Assembly (NCBI RefSeq): GCF_011398155.1
Contig: NZ_AP021888.1
Coordinates: 124,001-188,000, forward strand
DNA from: Thiosulfativibrio zosterae
GTDB lineage: Bacteria > Pseudomonadota > Gammaproteobacteria > Thiomicrospirales > Thiomicrospiraceae
Length of the DNA stretch: 64,000 nucleotides
Reading direction: 5' to 3'
The position numbers and the translations under genes were made by a program. Shown piece by piece: positions 2,105 through 42,245 of this stretch (position 1 is the stretch's first letter; each line of letters starts with the position of its first letter). The notes below the pieces were generated by a model that was not told the DNA's origin, did no database searches, and was given only the letters and a program-made list of their open reading frames with translations.

Positions 2105-2282
2105 GGTCTTGCCTGTGGGAATAAAAAGCTGATTATGATGAGTTTTGCAGAATTGTCAAAATCTGCTTGGCGATTAGTGAGTGGGATTGCAAAATTTTCT
2201 TATCGACCAATAAATATTAACAAAAGCTAATAAAACGACAATTTGCTAAGATTATCTTCTTAATTGATTGAAAGGAACGGTT

Positions 2283-3275: not shown

Positions 3276-3288
3276 CAGGTTGCGAAAG

Positions 3289-4311: not shown

Positions 4312-4811
4312 TGCCCAATACCGAGTTAATAGACATTTTGTTGCCGCAAGATCCTGGTTTTGACTGGGTATTTTGGCTAGAGCGTTTGCTAGAGGGTTTG
4401 GCAGGATTGGGCGTGTTGGCGATTTTAATTTGGTGGCTTAAAAATCTTTGGTTGCCGCTGAGGTTAATGCTGCAATATCGAATTTTAGTTTGGCGCCAAC
4501 AACGCTTGGCTTTACCAAAATTGCTAATGCAGTGCCAAGCTTGGCGAAAAGCGTCATTACCTTTTTGGCAAACTCAAACGGATTATGCGCAAGCCGATTT
4601 CAAAGCCTTTGGCTTGGCGTTAGATCAAGCCTGTTATGGAGCGCAAAAGGTTGGCGCAGAGGTTTCCCGTGAAACCTTAATGGATTTATTGGGTGCGGCG
4701 GCACAACAAGCATGGGATTTGGCGCGCATTGATAATCGTCTTTATTGGCGCAAACAATGGCAAGCCATCAAGCAAGGTTTTACAGCTCAGTCAGGAGGTC
4801 AGCATGACTGA
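4311..4811 (+). CDS. DUF4381-type membrane protein of the Bat operon
   Basis: The 166-residue product has a short N-terminal segment, one strong transmembrane helix (about 29-50, rich in Leu/Ile/Trp) and a cytoplasmic Gln-rich helical domain. Size, topology and position between DUF58 and the first VWA gene match the DUF4381 family that co-occurs with MoxR operons. I call it from context more than from sequence motifs. It starts in a TAATG overlap with the DUF58 gene, and the next gene starts seven bases before its stop, so it is an integral part of the operon. Likely role: linking the cytoplasmic MoxR/DUF58 pair to the membrane-anchored VWA proteins. Confidence 0.75.
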   Translation: MPNTELIDILLPQDPGFDWVFWLERLLEGLAGLGVLAILIWWLKNLWLPLRLMLQYRILVWRQQRLALPKLLMQCQAWRKASLPFWQTQTDYAQADFKAFGLALDQACYGAQKVGAEVSRETLMDLLGAAAQQAWDLARIDNRLYWRKQWQAIKQGFTAQSGGQHD

Positions 4812-5988
4812 GTGGTTATTGCGCCTTTCCCAGCAAGCTCAAAGCTGGCAAGAATGGGCGGCTATTAGTTTTGCGCAACCCGATGTATTTTGGCTGGGTT
4901 TGTTATTGCCATTGTTATGGCTTTCAAAGTGGGTGGGCGTGTGGCAAGTGCGCTCTGATTGGCAAGCAGACCTTGGCGCCACTCAAAATGCTTGGTTTCG
5001 CCACACCTTAATTGAACAGGCTTTTGCCTTAAAAAGTGCCCAAAAACAACCAGGCCTGGTTAGTTTTAAACCCAATTTAGCGACTTTTTGGCGCCAAACG
5101 CTCTTGCAAATCTTGCGTGTTTTGGTGGTGCTGATGGTATTGGTTGCTGCGGCACAACCGCAAAAAATCACGGTCTTTAAAGAGCCGCAACCGCAAGCCA
5201 AAACGGTGCGTGATTTGGTGTTTGTGGTTGAAAGTTCGGCATCATTTTTATTGCCTGATTACCAAGTTCAAGGTCAAGCAACGCCACGCATGACGGTGGT
5301 TAAACAGGTGCTCGATCAGTTTATGGCTGGCTTGTCGGGCAATCGTTTTGGATTGGTTTTGTATGCCGAGCAGGCCTATACGCTCATGCCTTTAACCAAT
5401 GATTTGACTACGGCAAGACTCATGTTGCAACGCTTGCGTCCCTATCTAGCAGGGCGCACCGATGAAGCCATGGGCGAGGCATTGGGCTTGGCACTTCGCC
5501 AAGCTGAGCAGGATACGCCCAGCACACAAAAGCGCGTGGTGGTGTTGATTTCGGATGGTTTATCGCGGCCGAGTCGTTTGCCCATTAATCAGGTGATTGA
5601 ATATGCACAAGCAATGAATTTACCCATTTATACCATCGGGGTCGGCGCAGGTTCTGCCGAAGCTGACCAACGCATTTATCGTGGGTTACTGTATCAACCT
5701 TTGGAATCCAATTCTTTAAAGACCTTAGCGGAACAAACGCTTGGGCAATATTTTCAAGTGACCAGCGGACAAGATTTGCAAAAAGTACTGCAAACGATTG
5801 ATCAATCCGAAGGGGTTGCGGTGGCAGAGTCGCTGGTGCGTAAACAAATTTCGGCACTCTTTGAATTGCCCTTGGCTTTGGGGCTATTGAGCTTATTCAT
5901 TTACACTCTGTTGCGTTTAATCTGGCAAAAACATCTGAAAGTCCTAGTTCCAAGCACGCCTGAACCGGAGAGTTCTCATGTTGGCTAG
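4804..5988 (+). CDS. BatA-like von Willebrand factor A membrane protein
   Basis: The 394-residue product has the BatA layout: N-terminal helices (about 28-40 and 100-118), a VWA domain (about 136-325), and a C-terminal transmembrane helix (about 352-373). VWA domains bind partners through a metal at the MIDAS site (DxSxS, then Thr and Asp). Here the first element reads ESSAS (143-147), with Glu in place of the usual Asp; T219 and D251 (in LISDG) can supply the other ligands. ATG at 4804 has GGAGG five bases upstream and overlaps the preceding gene slightly. The stop overlaps the next start by 11 bases. The ACCAGGCCTGGT palindrome lies within the gene. Role in envelope or oxidative stress tolerance is inferred from the Bat family. 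Confidence 0.88.
   Translation: MTEWLLRLSQQAQSWQEWAAISFAQPDVFWLGLLLPLLWLSKWVGVWQVRSDWQADLGATQNAWFRHTLIEQAFALKSAQKQPGLVSFKPNLATFWRQTLLQILRVLVVLMVLVAAAQPQKITVFKEPQPQAKTVRDLVFVVESSASFLLPDYQVQGQATPRMTVVKQVLDQFMAGLSGNRFGLVLYAEQAYTLMPLTNDLTTARLMLQRLRPYLAGRTDEAMGEALGLALRQAEQDTPSTQKRVVVLISDGLSRPSRLPINQVIEYAQAMNLPIYTIGVGAGSAEADQRIYRGLLYQPLESNSLKTLAEQTLGQYFQVTSGQDLQKVLQTIDQSEGVAVAESLVRKQISALFELPLALGLLSLFIYTLLRLIWQKHLKVLVPSTPEPESSHVG
5049..5060. repeat. ACCAGGCCTGGT palindrome, copy 2
   Basis: Exact copy inside the batA-like gene, read in a different frame from copy 1 (within codons for Gln-Pro-Gly-Leu-Val). Confidence 0.85.
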
Positions 5989-7975
5989 TGTATTGGCGTT
6001 ATTTGATGCGTCGCTCTGGTCTAGTTGGCAATGGCAAACACCAGAGTTGCTATGGCTAATAGCTTTGCCAGTGTTGCTTTGGCTGGTAATTTTCTTAAAG
6101 CGCCAACAGCAACAAACTCTCTATGCGCAACGCCATTTATGGGATTGGGTTAAGGTCGATCAATCGCATCACATTTTGGCGCATAAAAAGAATCTGCGCT
6201 TTTGGTGGCATTTTTTCGGCGCTTTACTTTCTTGGTGGTTTAAGCCAATGCAACTCTTGGCTTGGGCTTGGATTTTTGCGGTTTTGGCACTTGCTGGCCC
6301 GCGAATTTTAGAGAGCACGCCGCAACAACAGCAACGCGCGGGTGTGGATATTATGTTGGTGCTGGATTTGTCGCGCTCTATGTTGGCGCAAGATGTTCAG
6401 CCCTCACGGTTTCTATTCAGCAAAGCTTTAATTGAATCTTGGGTGAATCGCTTACAGCCGAATGACCGTTTGGGATTAATGGTGTATGCGGCCAAACCTC
6501 ATTTAGTGGCGCCCTTAAGTTTTGATCGTAGCTTGTTTGCGCATTATCTTAATTTAATGGAGCCAGGCATTTTGCCAACCGAAGGGTCTGAGCTGGAAAA
6601 TGCGATCGGTTTTGGAGCAGAGCACTTACGCGTCACCGCCGGTCAGGCATCGGTTTTAGTGGTGTTAACGGATGGGTCAGAAGAAGACTTTAAACCGCAA
6701 GAGCGCTCAGAGGATTACCAGCAACTGTTACAAACCGTTGCACAGCGCTCAGCCGAGGGAAAGCAGTCTTTGCCCATTTGGTTATTGGGTGTGGGTGGTC
6801 CTCAAGGCATGGCGATTCCTGATGCAACTCATCAAAGTGGGCGTTATCACCATAGCGGAATTTTAGTTACCACGCGTCTGGAAAGCAGTCGTTTGCAACA
6901 ACTGGCCAAATCCGTGGGCGGACAATATTTACCGGCTGATGGCAGTGCCGAATTTATCGACACTTTATTGGCACAAACCAAAAATTTGGTTAAACAAAGA
7001 CCTTCAATGGGTTCAGAGCAAAACTGGCGTTCTTTGGCAGCAGGCTTGACTTTTTTGAGTCTTTTGGCGTTGATATGGGCATTTTGGGGAGGACATTGGC
7101 GCAAAACGACACATTTAATTGTTTGGCTGTTGGTCGGATATTTGTCAGTGGGCGCACCCCAACCGCTGCAAGCGGCAGAATCGACCATGATTTTAGAGCA
7201 ACAAGGCTATCAAGCTTTTCAAGCGGGCGATTATGAAAGTGCTTTACAAGCCTATGATGCCTTGCCTAATTACCAAGGTTGGATGGGCGCTGGGGCAGCG
7301 GCTTATAAATCGGGTGATTTAGAGGCGGCGGTGATGTATTTTCGGCAAGCCATCATCGCTGGTGAGTCGCCACAGCAAAGAGGGGGTGCTTTATATAATC
7401 TAGGCAATGCCTATTACCAAGCAAATTTATTAGCACCCGCTGTTGAAGCCTATCAACAAAGTTTGATTTATGTGCCTGATGATCCAAATACCCTGCATAA
7501 CTTGGCGTTAGCCCAGCAGCGCCGAGCGCAAGAAAAAGGACAACAAACTTCGGATGAGCAATCGGGTGATGGACAAGGAAAAGGCGCTAAAAGCCGTGAT
7601 GCCGATGGCGCTTTTTACGGCGGTCAAAAACCTAGCGAAGAACAGGGTGAAGGTGTGGCGGGTGATGCACCAGAGGGAAACAAAGATGGCAAAGAAATGT
7701 TGCTGCCCTCTGAAGAAGATCGTACCCAATTTGGCTTACAAAATTTTGCAGACACCTCCATTGAACTGCAAAGCACAGCTGAAGACGCTGGGCAAATGGG
7801 CAATGCCATTTTGGCACAGCAACGCCAGCAACAAGTGATTGAAGCATTTGATTTAAAAATGCAGTCTTTAGAAGATGCACAAAAAGCCTTATTACAACGT
7901 TTGTTTGAAAGAGAAGAAGGCTTTCAAGCGCCACAATCACAAGCGCATTCAGTGCCAGGAATTAAGCCATGGTAA
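5978..7975 (+). CDS. BatB/BatC fusion: VWA domain plus TPR protein
   Basis: The 665-residue product joins two Bat proteins. The N-terminal half is BatB-like: hydrophobic helices (about 22-40 and 91-107) and a VWA domain with an intact MIDAS site DLSRS (130-134). A transmembrane segment near 350-395 follows. The C-terminal half is BatC-like, with tetratricopeptide repeats (about 405-510; recognisable units QGYQAFQAGDYESALQAY and GNAYYQANLLAPAVEAYQ). It ends with a hydrophilic Gln/Glu/Gly-rich tail. Fused BatB-BatC genes are common in gammaproteobacteria. The VWA part faces the periplasm with the membrane helices as anchors, and the TPRs should mediate protein-protein contacts. The ATG at 5978 overlaps the upstream stop; the 3' end overlaps batD by seven bases. 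Confidence 0.9.
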   Translation: MLASVLALFDASLWSSWQWQTPELLWLIALPVLLWLVIFLKRQQQQTLYAQRHLWDWVKVDQSHHILAHKKNLRFWWHFFGALLSWWFKPMQLLAWAWIFAVLALAGPRILESTPQQQQRAGVDIMLVLDLSRSMLAQDVQPSRFLFSKALIESWVNRLQPNDRLGLMVYAAKPHLVAPLSFDRSLFAHYLNLMEPGILPTEGSELENAIGFGAEHLRVTAGQASVLVVLTDGSEEDFKPQERSEDYQQLLQTVAQRSAEGKQSLPIWLLGVGGPQGMAIPDATHQSGRYHHSGILVTTRLESSRLQQLAKSVGGQYLPADGSAEFIDTLLAQTKNLVKQRPSMGSEQNWRSLAAGLTFLSLLALIWAFWGGHWRKTTHLIVWLLVGYLSVGAPQPLQAAESTMILEQQGYQAFQAGDYESALQAYDALPNYQGWMGAGAAAYKSGDLEAAVMYFRQAIIAGESPQQRGGALYNLGNAYYQANLLAPAVEAYQQSLIYVPDDPNTLHNLALAQQRRAQEKGQQTSDEQSGDGQGKGAKSRDADGAFYGGQKPSEEQGEGVAGDAPEGNKDGKEMLLPSEEDRTQFGLQNFADTSIELQSTAEDAGQMGNAILAQQRQQQVIEAFDLKMQSLEDAQKALLQRLFEREEGFQAPQSQAHSVPGIKPW

Positions 7976-9489
7976 GTTCGACTAAATTAAAAGTGATTAT
8001 GGGTGCATTCTTAGGGGTTTGCTTGGTTTTGATGTCAACTCTAGCAGAGGCAGTTGTGAAGGTTTATCCCCGAACTGTGCAGCTAGGTGAGCCGGTGACC
8101 TTGGTGCTGACGGGTGAGAAGATTGAGCAGGATTTTGAGCAGATTGATAAATCGCCCATTCGCCAGCATTTTGAAATTTATGAAGTTGAGGGCAATGCCG
8201 ACCGAGTGCGTTTAACGCTTTATCCATTAAGGGTCGGCGATTGGACGCTGCCCAAGATGCAGGCTGGGCAAATTGATTTTGCAGGCGTAACGATTCAAGT
8301 CAAAGAAAACAGCGCCGTTGAGGTTAAATGGCAACACCCAGATTCGAGTTTACCCATTTTTGCGCAACAACGCTATGTTTGGCAAGGCGTCGTTAAAACT
8401 GAGCCAGAATTTGCGGTGACCTTAGAAGCGCATCCGCATCAAAAACCACCGATTGAAACATTTTTTACGGCGCAACCGGTGGCAATCGACAGAGGGTTGT
8501 TTGGCGAAGAGCGCCATTTTTTAATGGCTTTTTGGAGTGAACAGGCTGGCAGTTTTGCGCTACGCTCACCCGTGATACGCGTTAAAAATAATAGCCAAAA
8601 AACTTGGTTGTTTTTTGATAACACTCAAACGGTGAAAGTGAAGTCCTTGCCTAATTATTTGCCACTGAATATGCCGGTTGGTCAGCTAGCAGTGCAATCA
8701 GACCCCTTGCCGTGGTTTTTAGAAGCGAGCGAGCTCAATCTTTGGTCTTTGCGTGTCACAGGTGACAATATCCTAGCGGATAGACTGCCTAATGTGCCTC
8801 AAAAACTGCAAAATTCACCTGCCTTAGAATGGCTGTCACCCACCCAAAAACAATACCAGGCCTGGTCAAAATTGGGCTGGAAAACCACTCAAATCTGGGA
8901 AATGCCTTTTCGCGCGCAACACTTAGGCTGGGTAACTTTACCGCCATTGCGTTTAACTTATTTTGATGTGACCACGCAACAACTTCAAGATGTTGTTTTG
9001 CCCGCCACCTTAAAATGGGTATTGCCCAGCGGGGCGTTTGTGTTTTTTAAAACGCTCATAGGGTTTTTGGGATTAGGGCTGGGTTTATTGCTATGGTTGT
9101 GGGTGAAAGCGTGGTTTTTGAAATGGCAAACCTATCGCATGATAGAAGCAGCCACAGATAATCAGCAGGTTTGGTTGGCTATACGGCAATTGATTATCAA
9201 GATTCAAAACGATAGTTTTGGACAAATTAAGCCGCAGTTTAATGAACTGGCACTCTCAATTGAAGCGGGGTTTAATCTTTGGTTTAACCAAAATAAGACA
9301 AATGTTTCACATGAAACACTTGATGTCATTGAGGCATTCAACCGCCATTTCTATGGCGCTGAAGCTTTACCTTTGCACGAATCCCAAAGACTCGCGCAAA
9401 GTTGGTTGTCACAACAGTCAGCGACTCAAATGTTATTAAATGAGCTGCGAACCATGCGGTACTTTTTGAAAGCAACGCCCAAAGCATAA
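7969..9489 (+). CDS. BatD-like oxygen tolerance protein
   Basis: The 506-residue product begins with a basic segment and a hydrophobic signal sequence (about 8-28, ending near AEA). It has a large beta-rich periplasmic region typical of BatD, and a transmembrane helix near 353-378 followed by a helical cytoplasmic tail. BatD is the last member of the Bat aerotolerance set and is thought to work at the periplasmic face with BatA/BatB. The start overlaps the fused batBC gene by seven bases. Its last 64 bases overlap, in antisense, the end of the small membrane protein gene on the minus strand. One exact ACCAGGCCTGGT palindrome lies at 8855. Confidence 0.85.
   Translation: MVSSTKLKVIMGAFLGVCLVLMSTLAEAVVKVYPRTVQLGEPVTLVLTGEKIEQDFEQIDKSPIRQHFEIYEVEGNADRVRLTLYPLRVGDWTLPKMQAGQIDFAGVTIQVKENSAVEVKWQHPDSSLPIFAQQRYVWQGVVKTEPEFAVTLEAHPHQKPPIETFFTAQPVAIDRGLFGEERHFLMAFWSEQAGSFALRSPVIRVKNNSQKTWLFFDNTQTVKVKSLPNYLPLNMPVGQLAVQSDPLPWFLEASELNLWSLRVTGDNILADRLPNVPQKLQNSPALEWLSPTQKQYQAWSKLGWKTTQIWEMPFRAQHLGWVTLPPLRLTYFDVTTQQLQDVVLPATLKWVLPSGAFVFFKTLIGFLGLGLGLLLWLWVKAWFLKWQTYRMIEAATDNQQVWLAIRQLIIKIQNDSFGQIKPQFNELALSIEAGFNLWFNQNKTNVSHETLDVIEAFNRHFYGAEALPLHESQRLAQSWLSQQSATQMLLNELRTMRYFLKATPKA
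8855..8866. repeat. ACCAGGCCTGGT palindrome, copy 3
   Basis: Exact copy inside the batD-like gene, read within codons for Tyr-Gln-Ala-Trp-Ser. Confidence 0.85.
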
Positions 9490-10179: not shown

Positions 10180-10650
10180 TTATTCAAGCCAGCTGGGTTT
10201 AGGGCTTTCTGAGCGACCGGCTTCAAAACCTTTGTCTACAAAACCATGCAAGGTCGCATCGTGGGCATGAATCAGTTCAATTAGTTTTGGGTTTTCGGTG
10301 GTGAGCGTAGCTTCAACGCCTTTGGGGATGGCTTTGTAATCCATGCTGATTTCATCTTTATATTCAAATAATGCCACAAATAATGGATCCCAAGAGCGTA
10401 TCGCGCGACCCATTCCAAAACGCTTTTCCATGCCGACAACATGCTGTTGTAATACTTTGGCCAGGTGTGGGTTGTCTGAGGTCGTGGTAGCGACGATGCC
10501 ATTGTCAATTAAACGCGTTTCGCGCTTAAGTTGTTGATGTTCTTGAAGCAATTCGTGAAACAGGGCCTGGTCGGCTTTGTGCTGTTCGTCAGCGCCGCCG
10601 CGACCGAGTTTATAGACTTTGCCTTCGAGATTTGCGTGAGCGTCTTGCAT
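10180..10650 (-). CDS. Unknown protein with internal duplication
   Basis: A 156-residue soluble protein that I do not recognise; no signal peptide, membrane segment or cysteine. It contains two related halves. GIVATTTSDNPHLAKVLQQH in the middle matches GVEATLTTENPKLIELIHAH about 65 residues later, sharing G-x-x-A-T-x-T-x-x-N-P-x-L and a closing His. Each half ends in His-rich helical sequence, so a symmetric ligand or metal site is conceivable but unproven. ATG at 10650 is chosen over a TTG 12 bases upstream because GGAGAAC lies properly in front. It precedes trxC by 57 bases on the same strand and is probably in one operon with it. The imperfect palindrome ACAGGGCCTGGT occurs inside. Confidence 0.75.
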   Translation of the reverse strand: MQDAHANLEGKVYKLGRGGADEQHKADQALFHELLQEHQQLKRETRLIDNGIVATTTSDNPHLAKVLQQHVVGMEKRFGMGRAIRSWDPLFVALFEYKDEISMDYKAIPKGVEATLTTENPKLIELIHAHDATLHGFVDKGFEAGRSESPKPSWLE

Positions 10651-10707
10651 GGTGTTCTCCAAAATAGGGATTTGATAGATTTATTGTAGGACTTTTCTCT
10701 GGTAAAA

Positions 10708-39100: not shown

Positions 39101-40317
39101 CTTATCATGAGGGTGATAGCGTTAGTTTCTTCATTGGTGATGTACTTATTGGTACTGAGACCTCAGAAAATCTAGATGGTGGATTGCTATTTTTACAGGA
39201 CTTAGCAAATGTTCAGCTTGGTGATTTAAATAATGAATATGTAGAAAATATGGCTGTGTTTTTACAGTCGTTAGATAATGATCAAGACGGTTCAAATGGT
39301 ATTTTGATAACGGATGAAGTCCATCAGCAATTTATGGGGAATGATCTCAATCTTATGACAGCTTCAGAGCAAGAGGTTCGTGATGTTATTGCTCAAGCAG
39401 GTATTGACAGCTTGTCTGAAGAAACGGCCATGCAACATGTTAAAGAAATGCTGGAACAATATGGCCATGTGACCCAATTTGATGAACATATCGATGATTC
39501 TATTAAAGTAGCAACTTTTGCAACAGAAGCTCCTGAAGGGCTTCGATATGAAACCTCATCAGGTCTGTCTGGTGAAATCATTGATGGTTTGATTTCGTAT
39601 GACGAAAACGACACCATCAATTTATATCTTGGCGATCAGCTTGTACTAAGCTTTGGAGCAGGGCAAATTCCTGCGACAAACCTCATTACTCTGAGCGATT
39701 TTGGGGTTGATTTGACTGACTTTATGTCAAACTCTGAAGAATCCATAGAGGTATTAAGCGATGAAGTGATTTCGGACGAAAACCTTGTTGATATAGCGGA
39801 TTTAGATCAAACCGAAGAATCTACCGTTGAGCAATCAACTCAGGATGAAAGCATTGTAGAGGTTAACGATGCTGATAGTTTAGAAGAAGTTGAACTAGCC
39901 TTAGATACTACACTAGTTGAAACACAAGTTTTAGATGAGGATGAATCGACAACTGCAAATGAAGAAGCTAATGCCGAGTTTGAAAATGAAGAAGAAAGTT
40001 TAGACGAGTTCTTATACGACCAATCAGACGCAGTTATTATTCCTGAATCAGATGTGAACTATCAGACTGACATGACTGAAGTTGAAATTGATGAGTTTGA
40101 TTTGAGTGATGTGATTAATGATGGTGAAGTGGTTTCTTCGGATTCTTTAGATGTTTACCTAGAGGCTCAAGCAGACTCTGAAGAAACTCTCGCTGAACCG
40201 GTTGTTGAAACACCTACTGAAGAGGTTTCGGCAGACAACTCAGTGTTTGATCTTAACCCTGTAAGAGATACCACGGTTGATTTAGATGACAATAAATACG
40301 ACTATACGGACCAGTAA
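11695..40317 (+). CDS. Giant LapA-type surface adhesin, 9,540 residues
   Basis: One uninterrupted frame for a protein that should approach a megadalton. Order of parts (residues from the ATG): retention module 1-150; Pro-Thr pentapeptide linker 187-241; GDTI/VENMA-type domain about 255-460; two diverged Calx-beta-like domains about 722-972; 47 identical Calx-beta domains 973-6463; a linker with another diverged Calx-beta domain, a jelly-roll-like domain and a VCBS-like domain to 6926; nine VCBS/cadherin-like domains 6927-7790; further beta domains; VWA domain about 8600-8785 with MIDAS DVSSS (D8610); a second copy of the GDTI/VENMA domain about 9110-9270; a highly acidic tail to 9540. ATG 11695 has TAGGAG eight bases upstream; an in-frame GTG at 11674 is less likely. 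LapA-type proteins are exported by a type I system and held at the outer membrane until LapG cuts them. Here the usual TAAG cleavage site reads TEAG (117-120). The next gene encodes a kinase; no exporter gene is nearby. Confidence 0.93.
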   Translation: MLPNLPHIAIGKVIEVTGYVQAIDVNGVPRVLSVGDTVYSFERIVTSDKGSILIDIGLEGADNVTQLALGKDTSMILDDDVIPGLSSLDSATQDSAVDVASIQEAVLKGLFDSMEKTEAGGENAESSLSTDLDFIQTGATGEVTAGYDTSAEFESRSYTRDFEGFRSAQFAISPNSPFFGFQFPGTPVTPSPVTPTPVTPTPVTPTPVTPTPVTPTPVTPTPVTPTPVTPTPVTPTPVTPTPPTVENPVNLARFTDNFVNGVEYTTSSGLTGLTGDSGVAGEFKFRDGDTITFKVGDVIVGVFSADVVKGDLLFLQDIAGTELSDNNSMYVENMAIFLQAIDSDLKDSTPDDGILQTNSLVDVDSSYGTNINITQEMRDAFTGYLDPTTGEPLNIANSDKEMISLVLDSVNIEFTRESEGEVEVGSGNSGNVFESIAMQHVADTIQDLAGDRTPAEADARLADELEVPGGVVEYNFQEIQSMDVPQITFDARDLLQGAVGQQVFDGNLIVKNVTLAAGFEDIGELVSLGDDKYAINLRDDITPYDLEGLSLNYRVQDWTVYRDVTSTTLDTHKAHLSAEIENVVEDAGYSQFTVKSTLAFDSDQQLTVKFSPETAGSNFAEYSDDFMVPLEYSNDGGVTWNTMNIVDTYTRDDYDKPLPVFSFTLAANTTDVVIRIPIFDDPYNEDPAGSIDPLTGQGMEVIDMLVEGDNFYAEKLQPGIIDNDPSSDKPVVEVDFAVVNEADGFAVITFSLVDSDKNPITFNEDIVVDYQTGDLSAVAGQDYTALSGSITIPAGQGSVQLSIPIIDDNLVETLEFLKLSLTSVSDNAVLGDPEASVRIYDNDGINISGETNPEGNNVVFTVTLSEGIDSSAILKLSPTNSGATATKDVDFDSSTLKAFYIDGNNNEVVLTTTAGQGFSVPDGVTQFFVTYESIDDSIIELDETVRMQVFAELADGTDRLAIGTATITNNDFPEFNMGTDFVVDEAAGTISFTVTKTGDTTQASTVDFTTVDGTALAGTDYTAQSGTLSFAAGETSKTITVAITNDAVFEGAENFKVQISNPSNATIGDNDQVATIKDDGSTGITDDDRPEFNMGTDFVVDEAAGTISFTVTKTGDTTQASTVDFTTVDGTALAGTDYTAQSGTLSFAAGETSKTITVAITNDAVFEGAENFKVQISNPSNATIGDNDQVATIKDDGSTGITDDDRPEFNMGTDFVVDEAAGTISFTVTKTGDTTQASTVDFTTVDGTALAGTDYTAQSGTLSFAAGETSKTITVAITNDAVFEGAENFKVQISNPSNATIGDNDQVATIKDDGSTGITDDDRPEFNMGTDFVVDEAAGTISFTVTKTGDTTQASTVDFTTVDGTALAGTDYTAQSGTLSFAAGETSKTITVAITNDAVFEGAENFKVQISNPSNATIGDNDQVATIKDDGSTGITDDDRPEFNMGTDFVVDEAAGTISFTVTKTGDTTQASTVDFTTVDGTALAGTDYTAQSGTLSFAAGETSKTITVAITNDAVFEGAENFKVQISNPSNATIGDNDQVATIKDDGSTGITDDDRPEFNMGTDFVVDEAAGTISFTVTKTGDTTQASTVDFTTVDGTALAGTDYTAQSGTLSFAAGETSKTITVAITNDAVFEGAENFKVQISNPSNATIGDNDQVATIKDDGSTGITDDDRPEFNMGTDFVVDEAAGTISFTVTKTGDTTQASTVDFTTVDGTALAGTDYTAQSGTLSFAAGETSKTITVAITNDAVFEGAENFKVQISNPSNATIGDNDQVATIKDDGSTGITDDDRPEFNMGTDFVVDEAAGTISFTVTKTGDTTQASTVDFTTVDGTALAGTDYTAQSGTLSFAAGETSKTITVAITNDAVFEGAENFKVQISNPSNATIGDNDQVATIKDDGSTGITDDDRPEFNMGTDFVVDEAAGTISFTVTKTGDTTQASTVDFTTVDGTALAGTDYTAQSGTLSFAAGETSKTITVAITNDAVFEGAENFKVQISNPSNATIGDNDQVATIKDDGSTGITDDDRPEFNMGTDFVVDEAAGTISFTVTKTGDTTQASTVDFTTVDGTALAGTDYTAQSGTLSFAAGETSKTITVAITNDAVFEGAENFKVQISNPSNATIGDNDQVATIKDDGSTGITDDDRPEFNMGTDFVVDEAAGTISFTVTKTGDTTQASTVDFTTVDGTALAGTDYTAQSGTLSFAAGETSKTITVAITNDAVFEGAENFKVQISNPSNATIGDNDQVATIKDDGSTGITDDDRPEFNMGTDFVVDEAAGTISFTVTKTGDTTQASTVDFTTVDGTALAGTDYTAQSGTLSFAAGETSKTITVAITNDAVFEGAENFKVQISNPSNATIGDNDQVATIKDDGSTGITDDDRPEFNMGTDFVVDEAAGTISFTVTKTGDTTQASTVDFTTVDGTALAGTDYTAQSGTLSFAAGETSKTITVAITNDAVFEGAENFKVQISNPSNATIGDNDQVATIKDDGSTGITDDDRPEFNMGTDFVVDEAAGTISFTVTKTGDTTQASTVDFTTVDGTALAGTDYTAQSGTLSFAAGETSKTITVAITNDAVFEGAENFKVQISNPSNATIGDNDQVATIKDDGSTGITDDDRPEFNMGTDFVVDEAAGTISFTVTKTGDTTQASTVDFTTVDGTALAGTDYTAQSGTLSFAAGETSKTITVAITNDAVFEGAENFKVQISNPSNATIGDNDQVATIKDDGSTGITDDDRPEFNMGTDFVVDEAAGTISFTVTKTGDTTQASTVDFTTVDGTALAGTDYTAQSGTLSFAAGETSKTITVAITNDAVFEGAENFKVQISNPSNATIGDNDQVATIKDDGSTGITDDDRPEFNMGTDFVVDEAAGTISFTVTKTGDTTQASTVDFTTVDGTALAGTDYTAQSGTLSFAAGETSKTITVAITNDAVFEGAENFKVQISNPSNATIGDNDQVATIKDDGSTGITDDDRPEFNMGTDFVVDEAAGTISFTVTKTGDTTQASTVDFTTVDGTALAGTDYTAQSGTLSFAAGETSKTITVAITNDAVFEGAENFKVQISNPSNATIGDNDQVATIKDDGSTGITDDDRPEFNMGTDFVVDEAAGTISFTVTKTGDTTQASTVDFTTVDGTALAGTDYTAQSGTLSFAAGETSKTITVAITNDAVFEGAENFKVQISNPSNATIGDNDQVATIKDDGSTGITDDDRPEFNMGTDFVVDEAAGTISFTVTKTGDTTQASTVDFTTVDGTALAGTDYTAQSGTLSFAAGETSKTITVAITNDAVFEGAENFKVQISNPSNATIGDNDQVATIKDDGSTGITDDDRPEFNMGTDFVVDEAAGTISFTVTKTGDTTQASTVDFTTVDGTALAGTDYTAQSGTLSFAAGETSKTITVAITNDAVFEGAENFKVQISNPSNATIGDNDQVATIKDDGSTGITDDDRPEFNMGTDFVVDEAAGTISFTVTKTGDTTQASTVDFTTVDGTALAGTDYTAQSGTLSFAAGETSKTITVAITNDAVFEGAENFKVQISNPSNATIGDNDQVATIKDDGSTGITDDDRPEFNMGTDFVVDEAAGTISFTVTKTGDTTQASTVDFTTVDGTALAGTDYTAQSGTLSFAAGETSKTITVAITNDAVFEGAENFKVQISNPSNATIGDNDQVATIKDDGSTGITDDDRPEFNMGTDFVVDEAAGTISFTVTKTGDTTQASTVDFTTVDGTALAGTDYTAQSGTLSFAAGETSKTITVAITNDAVFEGAENFKVQISNPSNATIGDNDQVATIKDDGSTGITDDDRPEFNMGTDFVVDEAAGTISFTVTKTGDTTQASTVDFTTVDGTALAGTDYTAQSGTLSFAAGETSKTITVAITNDAVFEGAENFKVQISNPSNATIGDNDQVATIKDDGSTGITDDDRPEFNMGTDFVVDEAAGTISFTVTKTGDTTQASTVDFTTVDGTALAGTDYTAQSGTLSFAAGETSKTITVAITNDAVFEGAENFKVQISNPSNATIGDNDQVATIKDDGSTGITDDDRPEFNMGTDFVVDEAAGTISFTVTKTGDTTQASTVDFTTVDGTALAGTDYTAQSGTLSFAAGETSKTITVAITNDAVFEGAENFKVQISNPSNATIGDNDQVATIKDDGSTGITDDDRPEFNMGTDFVVDEAAGTISFTVTKTGDTTQASTVDFTTVDGTALAGTDYTAQSGTLSFAAGETSKTITVAITNDAVFEGAENFKVQISNPSNATIGDNDQVATIKDDGSTGITDDDRPEFNMGTDFVVDEAAGTISFTVTKTGDTTQASTVDFTTVDGTALAGTDYTAQSGTLSFAAGETSKTITVAITNDAVFEGAENFKVQISNPSNATIGDNDQVATIKDDGSTGITDDDRPEFNMGTDFVVDEAAGTISFTVTKTGDTTQASTVDFTTVDGTALAGTDYTAQSGTLSFAAGETSKTITVAITNDAVFEGAENFKVQISNPSNATIGDNDQVATIKDDGSTGITDDDRPEFNMGTDFVVDEAAGTISFTVTKTGDTTQASTVDFTTVDGTALAGTDYTAQSGTLSFAAGETSKTITVAITNDAVFEGAENFKVQISNPSNATIGDNDQVATIKDDGSTGITDDDRPEFNMGTDFVVDEAAGTISFTVTKTGDTTQASTVDFTTVDGTALAGTDYTAQSGTLSFAAGETSKTITVAITNDAVFEGAENFKVQISNPSNATIGDNDQVATIKDDGSTGITDDDRPEFNMGTDFVVDEAAGTISFTVTKTGDTTQASTVDFTTVDGTALAGTDYTAQSGTLSFAAGETSKTITVAITNDAVFEGAENFKVQISNPSNATIGDNDQVATIKDDGSTGITDDDRPEFNMGTDFVVDEAAGTISFTVTKTGDTTQASTVDFTTVDGTALAGTDYTAQSGTLSFAAGETSKTITVAITNDAVFEGAENFKVQISNPSNATIGDNDQVATIKDDGSTGITDDDRPEFNMGTDFVVDEAAGTISFTVTKTGDTTQASTVDFTTVDGTALAGTDYTAQSGTLSFAAGETSKTITVAITNDAVFEGAENFKVQISNPSNATIGDNDQVATIKDDGSTGITDDDRPEFNMGTDFVVDEAAGTISFTVTKTGDTTQASTVDFTTVDGTALAGTDYTAQSGTLSFAAGETSKTITVAITNDAVFEGAENFKVQISNPSNATIGDNDQVATIKDDGSTGITDDDRPEFNMGTDFVVDEAAGTISFTVTKTGDTTQASTVDFTTVDGTALAGTDYTAQSGTLSFAAGETSKTITVAITNDAVFEGAENFKVQISNPSNATIGDNDQVATIKDDGSTGITDDDRPEFNMGTDFVVDEAAGTISFTVTKTGDTTQASTVDFTTVDGTALAGTDYTAQSGTLSFAAGETSKTITVAITNDAVFEGAENFKVQISNPSNATIGDNDQVATIKDDGSTGITDDDRPEFNMGTDFVVDEAAGTISFTVTKTGDTTQASTVDFTTVDGTALAGTDYTAQSGTLSFAAGETSKTITVAITNDAVFEGAENFKVQISNPSNATIGDNDQVATIKDDGSTGITDDDRPEFNMGTDFVVDEAAGTISFTVTKTGDTTQASTVDFTTVDGTALAGTDYTAQSGTLSFAAGETSKTITVAITNDAVFEGAENFKVQISNPSNATIGDNDQVATIKDDGSTGITDDDRPEFNMGTDFVVDEAAGTISFTVTKTGDTTQASTVDFTTVDGTALAGTDYTAQSGTLSFAAGETSKTITVAITNDAVFEGAENFKVQISNPSNATIGDNDQVATIKDDGSTGITDDDRPEFNMGTDFVVDEAAGTISFTVTKTGDTTQASTVDFTTVDGTALAGTDYTAQSGTLSFAAGETSKTITVAITNDAVFEGAENFKVQISNPSNATIGDNDQVATIKDDGSTGITDDDRPEFNMGTDFVVDEAAGTISFTVTKTGDTTQASTVDFTTVDGTALAGTDYTAQSGTLSFAAGETSKTITVAITNDAVFEGAENFKVQISNPSNATIGDNDQVATIKDDGSTGITDDDRPEFNMGTDFVVDEAAGTISFTVTKTGDTTQASTVDFTTVDGTALAGTDYTAQSGTLSFAAGETSKTITVAITNDAVFEGAENFKVQISNPSNATIGDNDQVATIKDDGSTGITDDDRPEFNMGTDFVVDEAAGTISFTVTKTGDTTQASTVDFTTVDGTALAGTDYTAQSGTLSFAAGETSKTITVAITNDAVFEGAENFKVQISNPSNATIGDNDQVATIKDDGSTGITDDDRPEFNMGTDFVVDEAAGTISFTVTKTGDTTQASTVDFTTVDGTALAGTDYTAQSGTLSFAAGETSKTITVAITNDAVFEGAENFKVQISNPSNATIGDNDQVATIKDDGSTGITDDDRPEFNMGTDFVVDEAAGTISFTVTKTGDTTQASTVDFTTVDGTALAGTDYTAQSGTLSFAAGETSKTITVAITNDAVFEGAENFKVQISNPSNATIGDNDQVATIKDDGSISDDDTVSVTTVGAATETEGSDLTHTVTMSGVADSAKTYSFNVTDITATAGSDYTATPSFSNGVTYDALSGQITVPANVSSFTVTFPGLADALDESDETYSLTIGGVSGTGTITDDDNAPVANDDPSTAPYYVEVGNVSSSIYDYTWTNTGTANWNNTDSNDSTVKVTAFDSQGNAVSVSTTSNVVLGTGSSSTVVSNGNESFELGVAGSPRGDDDWPAEQIEYHAGTQTSEALVFQFSGYMNEATVKVSHLIGNEGGGEKGQWIAMLDGTVVATEIFASDTVVINTGNFVFNELRFEALPYTLQTGTGDSDASDYFIQSIQGSGPANANSDYSTTEDATLVIDTESFGVLKNDSDADNDAVNVIKVNGQVVNDGATVTLASGALLTIHSNGTFDYNPNGQFNSLAAGQVDQDSFTYQIQDIHGNTLNTANGEGPNSDLDSVATATITIIGKGEPYQPATPNIAPVAVDDSINATEDSVYTSTIDLDANDTDLDGDNLSVVAGTFTTTQGGTLVLAADGSYTYTPALNFNGVDTVDYTVTDGSLTDVGTLTINVGAVNDAPVAVDDSINATEDSVYTSTIDLDANDTDLDGDNLSVVAGTFTTTQGGTLVLAADGSYTYTPASNFNGVDTVDYTVTDGSLTDVGTLSITVGAVNDAPVAVDDSINATEDSVYTSTIDLDANDTDLDGDNLSVVAGTFTTTQGGTLVLAADGSYTYTPALNFNGVDTVDYTVTDGSLTDVGTLTINVGAVNDAPVAVDDSINATEDSVYTSTIDLDANDTDLDGDNLSVVAGTFTTTQGGTLVLAADGSYTYTPASNFNGVDTVDYTVTDGSLTDVGTLSITVGAVNDAPVAVDDSINATEDSVYTSTIDLDANDTDLDGDNLSVVAGTFTTTQGGTLVLAADGSYTYTPASNFNGVDTVDYTVTDGSLTDVGTLSITVGAVNDAPVAVDDSINATEDSVYTSTIDLDANDTDLDGDNLSVVAGTFTTTQGGTLVLAADGSYTYTPASNFNGVDTVDYTVTDGSLTDVGTLSITVGAVNDAPVAVDDSINATEDSVYTSTIDLDANDTDLDGDNLSVVAGTFTTTQGGTLVLAADGSYTYTPALNFNGVDTVDYTVTDGSLTDVGTLTINVGAVNDAPVAVDDSINATEDSVYTSTIDLDANDTDLDGDNLSVVAGTFTTTQGGTLVLAADGSYTYTPALNFNGVDTVDYTVTDGSLTDVGTLTINVGAVNDAPVAVDDSINATEDSVYTSTIDLDANDTDLDGDNLSVVAGTFTTTQGGTLVLAADGSYTYTPALNFNGVDTVDYTVTDGSLTDVGTLTINVGAVNDAPESAAGLVVTCEDISYTFRLADFGFSDVDGDSLASIRIENLPIDGELSLNGEPVIANQSVSQTEIANGLLVFTPDANESGIDAYQVVGTGDQHQDYATFQFSVSDGAEWSSATLMTIDVSPVVDSPLISVVGSKSTEITIDVSNVTTSQSGFSVTAYNADGSQGTVSLVTGTTHDGFGVSGVASGADVELGVNTAGNSEMLVVHFDYPVSSAAVAFAWQHPGEEAQYDFYLNGVQVGSGSNYGITDTVDPILNLTANGSSFDEIRFKAPDYEDDYLINQISFTQVIENNNSLQVDAGSTVDLSLTANLQDNDGSETISSLVIGNIPNGVTITDGSHSFTASEGSNSVDVLNWTIDSIELTVPASYEGTINLDIQAMAQESLAGLAEGENCPLTTVAHTSFVLDVNANLNAAIITIGDVQVDEDALVATYQISVDHAPKNQPLVVTLNQLDASGDPIVIEIPVGETSASKQVSIALTVNSDEDLNDIGITSAAGGNYLSIDSSDTAKFVVNAVADIPTVSIDIGEAQYINGTTQTTLAEKTISLTVNVTLGDEYGDDNISGTNGYEYIETSEQVLDFGAEYAGQTVVLDLSGNIKGDWNQGENVLDDYWKVSANDQELATYKYGSANNNDVSQNFNYQHTVTLDNSGKVVLNIEAATTSKSETVTINGITGLVNEVTVTNSSEEDERLEYPVVISAALNDSDGSETLTVTIKNVPQGATFDIGSDLGNGVWSIPVSGSSLNESLSLKVPISVAENLSALNLEISATSTESRDNADGTNFVTVTANDSATTPVLDLKPEGEDESQTLTFENITSNLTFIVDVSSSMSNEDLSLTENAIEKIISQYDGLGSVNINIVQFWGNGASQTSWINNVSNYDAGGSLYTDKSGTDPEQGLRLVVDAYSGNVPEADQDIVFYFGDGDPYDAYKTDFKSYQTTWQNFANNTVDMVKAYGINVNSLDILNQIVSSNEEPVYVSDVSDLDDAVENIAETVLTGNLLDNISGGDPQIHIQSITVDDTSYDASSFPENGLAIGGQGTLLVNFVTGEYNYIANSNEFLSDVSKVFSVSAKDADGDTTSFEVTINVDVDNTATVPNLTVKTGTPELVSTFTEQDTFHDTNDFELKANKLAEKTYDLKGDATSFTIRIEDYKASQDGGSVELYKDGNLVETVSLDSLTNNNNDNHARSYSYTGDQSFDQVKISIDDSSGTSFKIKDFKATILTGETESNYEYVIDIDASVNDSSETISSISIDGLPNNTSLTNSAGDEISISGGTATLTVEQLVGLKLISATELVNDPNDSIHITVTATSTETNSGDTAVRTATLIDGVIEGLIYVSSSGDMGKTDALGRFTYHEGDSVSFFIGDVLIGTETSENLDGGLLFLQDLANVQLGDLNNEYVENMAVFLQSLDNDQDGSNGILITDEVHQQFMGNDLNLMTASEQEVRDVIAQAGIDSLSEETAMQHVKEMLEQYGHVTQFDEHIDDSIKVATFATEAPEGLRYETSSGLSGEIIDGLISYDENDTINLYLGDQLVLSFGAGQIPATNLITLSDFGVDLTDFMSNSEESIEVLSDEVISDENLVDIADLDQTEESTVEQSTQDESIVEVNDADSLEEVELALDTTLVETQVLDEDESTTANEEANAEFENEEESLDEFLYDQSDAVIIPESDVNYQTDMTEVEIDEFDLSDVINDGEVVSSDSLDVYLEAQADSEETLAEPVVETPTEEVSADNSVFDLNPVRDTTVDLDDNKYDYTDQ
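12253..12417 (+). repeat. 15-bp tandem repeat, 11 copies (Pro-Val-Thr-Pro-Thr linker)
   Basis: Eleven tandem copies of a 15-bp unit (consensus CCGGTAACACCTACA) encode a Pro/Thr-rich, probably extended linker. Copies differ only at wobble positions (CCA/CCG, ACA/ACG, ACC/ACA) and one Thr-to-Ser change in the first copy. The linker separates the retention module from the rest of the adhesin. Confidence 0.95.
12460..13080 (+). other. Adhesin N-terminal copy of a domain repeated at the C terminus
   Basis: Key strings are YTTSSGLTG, FRDGDTITFKVGDVIVG, LLFLQDIAG, YVENMAIFLQ and later IAMQHVADTI. The same order appears near the C terminus (39040-39470) as FTYHEGDSVSFFIGDVLIG, LLFLQDLAN, YVENMAVFLQ and TAMQHVKEML. 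A third, partial copy (YETSSGLSG, ENDTINLYLGDQL) follows at about 39535-39660. Confidence 0.75.
14611..31084 (+). repeat. 351-bp tandem repeat, 47 copies (identical Calx-beta domains)
   Basis: A unit of exactly 351 bp (117 codons) begins at CCAGAATTCAACATG and is repeated from 14611; the last unit starts at 30757 and diverges after 31084. That makes 46 full units and one shortened at the end. The copies I compared are identical at DNA level. Each encodes a Calx-beta domain, with the typical strings VDFTTVDGTALAGTDYTAQSG, GETSKTITVAI and FEGAENFKVQISNP, ending in a DDD linker. The period keeps the frame, so copy number can change without breaking the gene. Codon choice in the array favours C-ending codons (ACC, ATC, GTC, TTC), unlike the flanking parts of the gene. 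Confidence 0.97.
31085..32472 (+). other. Adhesin linker: diverged Calx-beta, jelly-roll-like and VCBS-like domains
   Basis: After the array comes a diverged Calx-beta domain (SVTTVGAATETEGSDLTHTV to GTITDDD). Next is a domain of about 185 residues (31489-32050, VTAFDSQGNAV to DYFIQSIQGS) that recurs in diverged form at about 35460-35930. Then comes a VCBS-like unit (FGVLKNDSDADNDAVNV, GTFDYNPNGQF, DSFTYQIQD) leading into the 288-bp array. Confidence 0.65.
32473..35064 (+). repeat. 288-bp tandem repeat, 9 copies (VCBS/cadherin-like domains)
   Basis: Nine units of exactly 288 bp (96 codons), each starting GCACCCGTAGCGGT, encode VCBS/cadherin-like domains (EDSVYTSTIDLDANDTDLDG, GSYTYTPALNFNGVDTVDYT). 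Two variants differ at the 3' part of the unit: A has ALNFNG and TINVGAV, B has ASNFNG and SITVGAV. The order is A B A B B B A A A. The last three A copies also share ACAACT instead of ACCACT. Wobble bases at the start of each unit follow the type of the unit before it. Confidence 0.95.
35065..37490 (+). other. Adhesin region with diverged beta domains after the VCBS array
   Basis: Contains a VCBS/Ig-like unit (FSDVDGDSLASIRI), the second copy of the jelly-roll-like domain (about 35460-35930), and modules marked by a D-x-D-G-S-E-T-I/L motif followed by I-P-x-G. Examples of the motif are NDGSETISSLVIGNIPNG at 36000 and SDGSETLTVTIKNVPQG at 37165; a third, SSETISSISIDGLPN, lies at 38775. Such modules are common between repeat arrays and the VWA domain in LapA-type adhesins. 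Confidence 0.6.
37490..38060 (+). other. von Willebrand factor A domain of the adhesin
   Basis: TFIVDVSSSMS (MIDAS Asp at residue 8610) starts a VWA fold. It continues with NINIVQFWGNG, the DPEQGLRLVVDAY stretch, DIVFYFGDGDP, and the closing LDDAVENIAETVLTG typical of LapA-like proteins. All metal-site residues of the first motif are present. It is a candidate ligand-binding or assembly domain. Confidence 0.85.
39756..40314 (+). other. Acidic C-terminal tail of the adhesin
   Basis: About 185 residues dominated by Glu and Asp with Ser, Thr and Val, ending DDNKYDYTDQ. I see no GGxGxD nonapeptides and no second membrane segment. A type I secretion signal could be within the last residues, but this is not directly visible. 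Confidence 0.65.
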
Positions 40318-40332: not shown

Positions 40333-40368
40333 AAAGGCATTTCCTTCACTAGAGGGAAGTGCCTTTTT
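40333..40368 (+). terminator. Terminator of the adhesin gene
   Basis: AAAGGCATTTCC pairs with GGAAGTGCCTTT (one G-T pair) around a short loop, followed by a T run, 15 bases after the adhesin stop codon. Confidence 0.8.
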
Positions 40369-40392: not shown

Positions 40393-41796
40393 GTGCACAT
40401 GACCAACAAAAATGGTGACACTGGGGGGAATCCTAAAAACCCCATCTTCATCCAGCATGACCTTACGGATATTGAGCCGCTAGGGCAAGGGGAGTTTGCC
40501 TCTGTCTTTAAAGCAACTCAGGTTAAGCTTGACGCTGAGAAAGTCCAGACCATTCGTGTCGTTGATCGAACACATCACCACTTTGCATTAAAACGCGAAA
40601 AAGACTTATTGCTGTATCTCAATCAGTTTTCTGAGGATTTTCCGAGATTTAATGAAATCCGTAAACAAGGTTTTAGTTATCTGCAGTTTTTTGATTTTGT
40701 GGGCAAGAAATCTTTGCAACAGCAGGTTGATAAAAAGGGTGGCTTGTCGGACTCAAAGGCTCGGTTGCTGTTGTCGAATATGTTGTCAACCTTAAAGCGG
40801 GTTCATGAAGTTGGGTTTATTCATGGAGATGTTTGTCCGGATAATATTATCTGGGGCAAGGGTCGCTATTATTTGGTGGATTGGAGCAAAGCCATTCCAG
40901 GCATTGCGTCTTATGAAACGGAATTAATGGTGGGTGATAAACGCTATAGTGCACCGGAGCGCTTAAATGGCGAGTATACCGATGCCAGTGATGTTTATGC
41001 TTTGGGATGCACTTTGTATTTTGCCTTAACTGCTAAGCACATTTATCGTTTGAATGAAGCCCATTCCATGACGGATCAGTTGTATGCCCATGCTTTTAAC
41101 GCACCGCGCAAATTACAAAAGCTACCCAAAGATTGGCAATTTTTAATTCGTTGGATGACACAAAAAGACCCTCAAAAACGACTAGGCCTGGTTGATTTAG
41201 AGCAGTGGTTGGTGGATAAAACCCTTCCAAAAGAGATGCGCCAACCTTCATCAAATGAGCAAGAGGCTAAAAGTGACTTTCCTCAGGACAGTTTAGAGGC
41301 TTTGGCGAATTCTCATTATTTGTATGCCTTGTTCAAACAAGCAACCTTGTATGAAGCGCAAGGGGCTTTGGAAACCGCGTTTAATTTATATGAAAACTGC
41401 GCCTTTCATGGTTATACCCGAGCTGAAAACAATTTGGGTTTAATGTACGAAAAAGGCTCTCCAGTTAGGCAGTCTTATGAACAAGCCATGAATAATTTTC
41501 ATCAAGCGTTTCAAAAGGGCAACCCTTATGCGGCGTTTAATTTGGCCAGAATGTTTGAAGAAGGTTTAGGTACCGAAAAAAATCCTGAACAAGCTCACAA
41601 ACTGTATCGCTTTGCGGCTTTAAGGGGGCATTTTCCTGCTCAGAATAAGCTGGGTATGTGTTATTGGAAAGGCAGTTGCGTTAATAAAGATATCGCCCAA
41701 GCGCGTTATTGGTTTGGACTGGCGGCGCATTATGGTTATGAGCCTGCCGCTTCCAATATCAAAGCTTTGATGGCCGATTCTATCAAACAAGCCTAA
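40393..41796 (+). CDS. Atypical Ser/Thr protein kinase with C-terminal Sel1 repeats
   Basis: The 467-residue product has a protein kinase fold (about 24-270) followed by Sel1-like repeats (about 305-460; e.g. AENNLGLMYEKGS, AAFNLARMFEEGLG, AQNKLGMCYWKGS). The Gly-rich loop GQGEFASVF (31-39), the helix-C Glu, the catalytic Asp in HGDVCPDN (144-151), a metal-binding Asp in VDWS (162-165) and the APE motif (187-189) are present. The beta-3 Lys appears replaced by Arg (R55 in TIRVVDR), HRD is HGD, and the Lys of HRDxKxxN is Cys (C148). Activity is therefore uncertain. The GTG at 40393 has AGG nine bases upstream; ATG 40399 is an alternative start. It follows the adhesin terminator in the same direction. 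A role in controlling the adhesin or its export is only suggested by position. Confidence 0.82.
   Translation: MHMTNKNGDTGGNPKNPIFIQHDLTDIEPLGQGEFASVFKATQVKLDAEKVQTIRVVDRTHHHFALKREKDLLLYLNQFSEDFPRFNEIRKQGFSYLQFFDFVGKKSLQQQVDKKGGLSDSKARLLLSNMLSTLKRVHEVGFIHGDVCPDNIIWGKGRYYLVDWSKAIPGIASYETELMVGDKRYSAPERLNGEYTDASDVYALGCTLYFALTAKHIYRLNEAHSMTDQLYAHAFNAPRKLQKLPKDWQFLIRWMTQKDPQKRLGLVDLEQWLVDKTLPKEMRQPSSNEQEAKSDFPQDSLEALANSHYLYALFKQATLYEAQGALETAFNLYENCAFHGYTRAENNLGLMYEKGSPVRQSYEQAMNNFHQAFQKGNPYAAFNLARMFEEGLGTEKNPEQAHKLYRFAALRGHFPAQNKLGMCYWKGSCVNKDIAQARYWFGLAAHYGYEPAASNIKALMADSIKQA
41181..41192. repeat. Near-copy of the palindrome (ACTAGGCCTGGT)
   Basis: One mismatch to ACCAGGCCTGGT, inside the kinase gene. 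Confidence 0.5.
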
Positions 41797-41822: not shown

Positions 41823-42245
41823 TTAGGTTTTCTTTTTATCCATCAATAAGTTGGCCATGTGACTTAGCCATTCACTGAACGCACGCATTTCAGGTTTAGA
41901 AATTTCAATAATATCTGCCAAACTGTACTCTCCCAACGGATAGTCTGCATTGGTACAAGCACATTTGATTAAATACAAAATCTGCGCCTGGCTCATGTCC
42001 TTACTGGGTAAAAAATAAGTGGTTTTGGCCAAAAGCGTGGCTTTTAAAATGTTCATCCAGTGATGAACAGGGGCATGATGTTCTTGCAACAGCAGTTGCT
42101 CAGCTTGGGGTGGCGTGACTTGTTCTTGCAGCGCCAAAAGTTGTGCTAAGGAATAACGCGTTAATAAATCTTCAGCCACATCTCTCGCATTGGGCGGCAA
42201 ATCTAATAAAGCTTTTTTTTCGTAGGATTTTTCGATTAGATGCAT
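41823..42245 (-). CDS. Unknown helical protein
   Basis: A 140-residue, mostly alpha-helical soluble protein with no signal peptide or membrane segment; I do not recognise its family. It contains two Cys in KCACTNADYPLG and several His (EHHAPVHHWM). It converges with the kinase gene, leaving 26 bases between the stops, and is divergent from apt across a 125-bp spacer. The ATG at 42245 is the first in frame; CTAAAGAAGATTCT precedes it, a weak ribosome site. Confidence 0.65.
   Translation of the reverse strand: MHLIEKSYEKKALLDLPPNARDVAEDLLTRYSLAQLLALQEQVTPPQAEQLLLQEHHAPVHHWMNILKATLLAKTTYFLPSKDMSQAQILYLIKCACTNADYPLGEYSLADIIEISKPEMRAFSEWLSHMANLLMDKKKT

Follow-up and report, generated by a model that had tools for sequence, protein, structure and literature searches.

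What a kinase-like protein does directly behind a giant adhesin gene, and whether it still acts as a kinase, is the question raised by an open reading frame in the window, i.e., the whole 64,000-nucleotide stretch of Thiosulfativibrio zosterae DNA that was analyzed. The gene starts with GTG, has an in-frame ATG as codon 3, and encodes 467 amino acids (Table 1). Pfam identified a Pkinase domain (E 3.1e-28) and Sel1 repeats (E 3.2e-24) in the product, and beyond kinase-like families Sel1 was the only match. The AlphaFold2 model (19 sequences) had a mean pLDDT of 90.1, and VIA-align comparison of the kinase-fold domain (residues ~14 to 284) gave Z scores of 27.7 to Aurora A and 26.7 to PknB; as predicted from sequence and model, this is a bilobal domain of the Hanks-type Ser/Thr protein kinase fold. 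A strongly hydrophobic segment was sought in the window protein and not found, the highest 19-residue mean hydropathy being 0.81. An anti-phage kinase was considered and rejected: the PADLOC hits PD-T4-6 and mad6 were attributed to the shared kinase domain, as was the NCBIfam match to MAD6, which reached only 78.9 bits against a cut-off of 460.

Table 1. Features of the adhesin-pseudokinase locus (positions are those of the window)
Feature	Position	Strand	Basis
Pseudokinase-Sel1 protein, 467 aa	40393..41796	+	ORF; Pfam Pkinase and Sel1; AlphaFold2 pLDDT 90.1
Kinase-fold domain (predicted), residues 26-268	40468..41196	+	Pfam PF00069; VIA-align to Aurora A, PknB
R55 at beta-3 Lys position	40555..40557	+	beta-3 strand 48-57; profile-profile and PDK1 alignments; R 28, Q 4, K 1 in 33 copies
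HGDVCPDN catalytic-loop motif (H144-N151)	40822..40845	+	H144 33/33, D146 11/33, N151 25/33
DWS, DFG-like motif (D163)	40879..40887	+	D in 19/33
Sel1 repeats, residues ~330-460	41380..41772	+	PF08238, three stretches; helix pairs in model
Terminator-like hairpin between adhesin and pseudokinase	40333..40366	+	15-bp stem, then T-run
o140, small conserved neighbor without Pfam match	41823-42245	-	
Second small conserved neighbor without Pfam match	10180-10662	-	
Giant LapA-type adhesin, 9547 aa	11674..40317	+	N-terminal retention module weak
Conserved FDLSDVI...LDVYL segment near adhesin C-terminus	40096..40161	+	alignment of 29 adhesin C-termini
Conserved acidic C-terminal adhesin tail (DLDDNKYDYTDQ)	40279..40314	+	alignment and tail profile

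The preliminary description of this protein placed R55 where the ATP-binding Lys is expected, and the predicted structure agrees, with R55 inside the beta-3 strand (48 to 57). K67, which had been put forward as the possible occupant of that position, sits in helix alphaC (63 to 76). In a profile-profile alignment with 15 control kinases, V-Q-T-I-R55-V fell on V-V-A-I-K-V, locally and globally alike, and E69 corresponded to the alphaC Glu. The best PDK1 match had the same register, with T-I-R55-V on A-I-K-I and L-K-R-E69-K-D on V-Q-R-E-K-D. A single-sequence match to 4eqm was offset by three residues, so that the VAIK Lys falls on Q52; under neither register is there a Lys at the beta-3 position. 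The catalytic loop likewise reads as described earlier, H144-G-D146-V-C148-P-D-N151, with HGD in place of HRD and C148 in place of the following Lys.

When 62 genomes belonging to one bacterial family were searched with a profile, 33 full-length copies were recovered from 31 of them, including two each in G061 and G076 (read in fetched regions), and a further copy in G071 was cut by the contig end. The other 30 genomes lacked the pseudokinase, and their other profile matches were Sel1 repeats. Across the class, the protein was found at E <= 1e-40 in only 2 of 369 genomes, the window genome (G000) and G006; this threshold, used beyond the family, may miss remote homologues, the looser search having extended to just 21 genomes outside it. 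Among the best 80 of 197 matches in a scan of named genomes, 18 copies lay at 17 loci, all with the titles Hydrogenovibrio, Thiomicrorhabdus, or Thiomicrospira or with broader names only; the other 62 loci retained gave matches of 24 to 36%, mostly within the kinase domain.

That the catalytic Asp, Asn, and DFG-like Asp remain, as had been claimed, holds for the window copy (D146, N151, and D163-W-S); across the family these residues are not conserved. The 33 full-length copies keep the alphaC Glu in 28 cases, N151 in 25, the DFG Asp in 19, and D146 in only 11, position 146 otherwise being A (8 copies), N (6), R (4), Q (2), S (1), or E (1), and the D146 column is more variable than 82% of kinase-domain positions. 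H144, E189, and R263, on the other hand, are present in all 33. Among 83 control kinase domains from the other loci of the named-genome scan, the catalytic Asp and Asn were each present in 83 and the DFG Asp was present in 82; the local alignments of these controls reach beta-3 in only nine (K in four), and no claim about beta-3 is based on them. At least one catalytic motif residue is missing in every family member, as expected of pseudokinases, and two marks of active Hanks-type kinases, the beta-3 Lys and family-wide retention of the catalytic Asp, Asn, and DFG Asp, are lacking. The sole copy with Lys at beta-3, that of G025, lacks the catalytic Asp, Asn, and DFG Asp.

On the kinase tree, in which 15 of 30 inner branches are weak, D146 changed state at least five times, or was lost at least nine times if never regained. 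Four close pairs without D146 gave dN/dS values of 0.020, 0.028, 0.043, and 0.071, indicating strong purifying selection, and were no higher than two pairs that retain it (0.076 and 0.081). Ten pairs were analyzed, of which three were undefined through saturation; G077/G073 gave 0.091 at a dS of 2.0, and dS was 1.79 for G010/G019. The L099 copy, degraded at every motif (HNN and SMD), was still folded confidently in silico (pLDDT 92.1). Because motif loss was repeated, dead copies are under purifying selection, and a degraded copy has a confident fold, the sequences place these proteins in what is a lineage-restricted pseudokinase family, with the window copy among its least degraded members. 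Judged from sequences and models, the family appears to have been kept for its shape and not for phosphotransfer. Thus, where the preliminary description left the choice between a divergent active kinase and a pseudokinase, the latter is strongly favored for the family, given the loss of the catalytic Asp in 22 of 33 copies, its at least nine losses (if never regained), and the purifying selection; the window copy by itself might nevertheless be a divergent active kinase. In a separate observation, a tandem pseudokinase pair in G061 (L080:4284-7128) combines HGD with HGN, the duplicate having lost the catalytic Asp.

Two enzymatic readings have to be set against this. The gene might encode a divergent kinase that is still active, with the adhesin, LapD, or some other partner as its substrate, and the dead copies would then be secondary. 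The window copy and nine others keep D146, N151, and D163 together, but all 10 have Arg at beta-3, and the loss of the catalytic Asp in two-thirds of the family together with the strong purifying selection measured for four close pairs makes it very improbable. A pseudokinase with a different enzymatic activity has precedents in the accessible part of PMC12599244, namely SelO (AMPylation) and SidJ (glutamylation), and R68, K70, E88, and R90 are invariant or nearly so in the 30 aligned copies (this alignment leaves out G025, G006, and G076b). In SidJ, according to the same part of that source, the Lys and Asp of the kinase motifs that bind ATP and metal are put to new use (PMC12599244), whereas these residues are not kept here, and this possibility seems to us even more remote than an active kinase.

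If the protein is non-catalytic, its surroundings may tell what it serves. A functional link to the adhesin had been suggested from the position of the gene alone; it is now supported by a conserved neighborhood and by co-occurrence with a C-terminal adhesin tail. In 28 of 33 copies the pseudokinase gene lies directly 3' of the adhesin C-terminus and in the same direction. In G073 and G077, one ORF of ~300 amino acids intervenes, which in G073 (L086:2655-3581) encodes a DNA/RNA non-specific endonuclease (PF01223); in G061 the second pseudokinase copy comes after the first, the contig of G072 ends behind an ORF of similar size, and in G025 there is no adhesin at the locus and no match that reaches the tail. 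ORFs of similar size to the endonuclease ORF were also seen in L084 and L085. A gene for a GGDEF protein is often found nearby, but several genomes with the pseudokinase, G010, G019, and G025 among them, lack it at the locus.

Hairpins similar to the terminator-like hairpin of the window were present in 21 of 27 intergenic regions examined, versus 0.28 per mononucleotide-shuffled set. In G027, G030, and G033 the gap was 10 to 36 bases, without such a hairpin; gap lengths were taken from the first possible start codon and depend on the start codon chosen. No kinase was found downstream of retention-module adhesins elsewhere in 15 informative flanks (one belonging to the second adhesin of G063 and two to G220), a weak negative, since the family profile may miss remote kinases. 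In 20 control loci, this profile picked up 39 kinase ORFs. Twenty flanks had been taken, with adhesin ends estimated from open-frame lengths, and five were uninformative at under 900 bases.

Adhesins beside the pseudokinase carry a short acidic tail of the approximate form IDDxNIDYQND behind an LDLSEVI...YL segment. The stretch between the two is degenerate, with recognizable ends, in the window, G005, G057, G073, G077, and G076 (beside its second pseudokinase copy), and the least recognizable tail is the NGDYLNE of G073 and G077. The tail was absent from 19 C-terminal regions of retention-module adhesins located away from a pseudokinase, a few of which end in loosely similar acidic stretches; L220 has no clear end. 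To build a tail profile, 29 adhesin C-termini were taken from 28 pseudokinase-bearing genomes (this set leaves out both G076 copies, and G025, G071, and G072 offer no C-terminus for it). Matches reaching to within two positions of the profile end occurred in 29 genomes, all with the pseudokinase, of which G076 was the one not used in building. Only three pseudokinase genomes had no full tail match, namely G071 and G072, whose contigs end, and G025.

Among the 30 genomes of the family without a pseudokinase, not one had a tail match at E <= 0.001. The co-occurrence gave a Fisher p of 1.2e-14, uncorrected for relatedness; because the profile was built from pseudokinase genomes, the tail is present there by construction and only its absence elsewhere is a test. 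Among the 369 genomes of the class, the tail (E <= 1e-6) was likewise confined to G000 and G006, the two with the pseudokinase. A retention-module match (E <= 0.001) was present in 17 of the 30 genomes that lack the pseudokinase, and an LssB-type exporter scored over its cut-off in 19 of them; since these 19 genomes have the exporter and no tail, it is with the pseudokinase, not with the exporter, that the tail goes. In 12 genomes (G000, G024, G010, G019, G030, G028, G012, G057, G066, G060, G063, and G081), retention-module and tail matches fell in open frames of the same length and at the same place; many adhesins beside the pseudokinase are cut by contig or region ends. Several tail-bearing adhesins occur within one genome in G012, G031, and G022.

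There are also natural losses. In G014, which groups with G005, both adhesin and pseudokinase are missing, and a 29-residue C-terminal remnant of the pseudokinase, 86% identical to the G005 copy, remains beside apt (L229:2058-2144). In G008, G034, and G082 the site is occupied by another retention-module protein without the tail, and there is no pseudokinase; at the contig-cut loci of G062, G065, G075, and G002, the visible ORF end is likewise without the tail. Other pseudokinase-less genomes have neither gene at the locus, or the contig ends. The G025 copy, which has no adhesin beside it, has drifted to a mean identity of 0.36 to seven references, versus 0.84 for apt and 0.86 for argH; four other pseudokinase copies had mean identities of 0.51 to 0.62 (six references each), and that of G060, where the adhesin is kept, was also low at 0.43.

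An apt-argH species tree offered four independent pairs on well-supported branches and six on all branches. Tail and pseudokinase changed in the same way in 3.9 of 4 pairs on average (p 0.125), a nonsignificant value because four pairs cannot reach significance. Mirror-tree analysis given apt yielded p 0.011 in a first run with 28 taxa and p 0.0005 with 27 and 25 taxa. The partial correlation of kinase and tail was 0.206 (p 0.054) in 22 taxa given apt, a test that leaves out G006 and taxa without o140, and 0.432 (p 0.001) in 19 taxa given argH; the kinase-o140 correlation was higher in both (0.637 and 0.660, respectively), and given o140 the kinase-tail value fell to 0.098 (p 0.20). Mirror-tree co-evolution of the pseudokinase with the adhesin C-terminus was therefore dropped as evidence, since the o140 control was stronger and the signal vanished given o140.

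These results bear on the possibility that the gene is a genomic hitchhiker, merely located beside the adhesin and inherited and lost with it. Consistent with this, the mirror-tree signal lay below that of the neighbor o140, a terminator-like hairpin usually separates the two genes, independent pairs are few, and co-loss by a single deletion is possible; because one deletion can remove adjacent genes, co-loss is no proof of interaction. G008 and G034, however, keep o140 and apt beside a different type of adhesin with the pseudokinase gone, and the protein has drifted in G025, where the locus has no adhesin, although the low value of G060 tempers this point. On balance, we consider hitchhiking quite unlikely.

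The Lap machinery is encoded elsewhere in the same genome. Locus L227 carries in one row OEP/TolC-type, OmpA, LapG, LapD, ABC, and HlyD genes, so identified by PF06035 for LapG, PF16448 with EAL and GGDEF for LapD, and ABC, HlyD, and OEP for the type I exporter; the OmpA-domain gene (L227:2776-3744) lies just before lapG. The retention-module match of the window adhesin was 41.6 bits, under the cut-off of 50, and that of its relative G024 was 57.1 bits, over it. Residues 1 to 300 of the window adhesin contained no match to [TPAG]AA[GV], which we take to be a simple pattern for the LapG di-alanine cleavage site. In LapA-type proteins, the N-terminus is retained in the envelope and the C-terminal signal exits first. 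The N-terminal retention module is mentioned in the accessible text of PMC6890996.

Our preferred reading, to which we assign a probability of about one-half, is that this pseudokinase-Sel1 protein acts in the cytoplasm as a non-catalytic adaptor dedicated to LapA-type adhesins with the tail, which it would bind before type I secretion. Because it has no membrane segment, and because the LapA-type N-terminus is anchored and the C-terminal signal leaves first, the pseudokinase would encounter the tail only within the cell, either ahead of export or while export proceeds. The adaptor would most likely bind the extreme C-terminus (the tail and perhaps LDLSEVI...YL) of the finished or nearly finished adhesin, a binding that we infer, and would then either escort the adhesin to the Lap-type exporter, whose genes lie elsewhere in the genome, or restrain it from entering. 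Sel1 repeats bind proteins of many kinds, and here they may make the contacts with partners. More tentatively, with the odds somewhat against it, the protein could represent a new class of accessory factors for type I secretion, in which a dedicated pseudokinase recognizes a code in the adhesin tail, controls entry into the exporter, and sometimes serves several tail-bearing adhesins per genome.

The generic nature of Sel1 binding would suit a non-catalytic adhesin partner that acts elsewhere without binding the tail, e.g., as a feedback regulator or scaffold of adhesin synthesis or as a link from the Lap system to another signal. The same neighborhood and co-occurrence data fit such a partner, as does the frequent GGDEF neighbor; however, no adhesin feature other than the C-terminal tail was found to follow the gene, and the absence of the GGDEF gene from G010, G019, and G025, among others, weakens that connection. 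We regard a partner of this kind as unlikely.

A tail-binding adaptor would find its nearest functional precedent, as far as the accessible parts of PMC9600267 and PMC12599244 extend, in EssB/YukC of type VIIb secretion, a pseudokinase degraded in all motifs with a non-catalytic role in secretion, where YukC contacts T7SSb components, substrates included. EssB/YukC, however, is a membrane component of the Firmicutes T7SS, whereas the window protein lacks any strongly hydrophobic stretch, contains Sel1 repeats, and is linked to a substrate of type I secretion. The accessible text of a 2025 review names seven bacterial pseudokinase families, and the words Sel1, adhesin, and Thiomicro- do not occur in its main text (PMC12599244). 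Two bacterial pseudokinase families, CP1 and DLHK, are soluble like the window protein, and CP1 shows a similarly patchy loss of motifs, in ~40% of its members; in the portion available, CP1 is linked to COG3899 and DLHK often to helicase domains, unlike the kinase fold plus Sel1 found here (PMC12599244). With only kinase-like families and Sel1 in Pfam, the window protein is set apart from CP1 by its Pfam content.

A cytoplasmic factor needed before type I export has a parallel in SecB, which acts in this way for HasA; SecB, in contrast, is a general chaperone, and it has no kinase fold. According to the accessible part of a 2014 review, HasA is the only T1SS substrate known to be strictly SecB-dependent (PMC4257090). 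The genome shares with LapA/LapDG systems LapG, LapD, and a type I exporter, together with a putative retention-module adhesin, and differs in the proposed pseudokinase partner beside the adhesin; such a partner for Lap systems was found neither in literature searches nor by a term search of the accessible text of PMC6890996, and searches covering open-licence papers returned no description of an adhesin-linked pseudokinase.

Type I secretion is usually described as a three-part channel plus a C-terminal signal, and hardly any cytoplasmic partners dedicated to it are known; of the many bacterial pseudokinases, few have an assigned role. The family offers a small, testable case, in which dead and less-degraded copies of one protein mostly lie beside their own adhesin and both genes have been lost naturally. 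It also touches on the question of how cells cope with secreting a protein of almost one megadalton.

Three further observations concern the adhesins and their surroundings. In the window adhesin, a 117-residue repeat begins 46 times at exact spacing, and 45 complete units are identical at the DNA level (351 bp), which may reflect a very recent expansion, strong homogenization, or an effect of assembly. In G061, a 321-amino-acid protein (L304:2933-3898) encoded far from the pseudokinase locus combines a retention-module match with an adhesin-like C-terminus ending in GQLTDYYSD. Upstream of the adhesin, positions 2268 to 9489 of the window hold a MoxR-Bat-like operon (ATPase, VWA, and BatD proteins), parts of which lie near the same place in several relatives.
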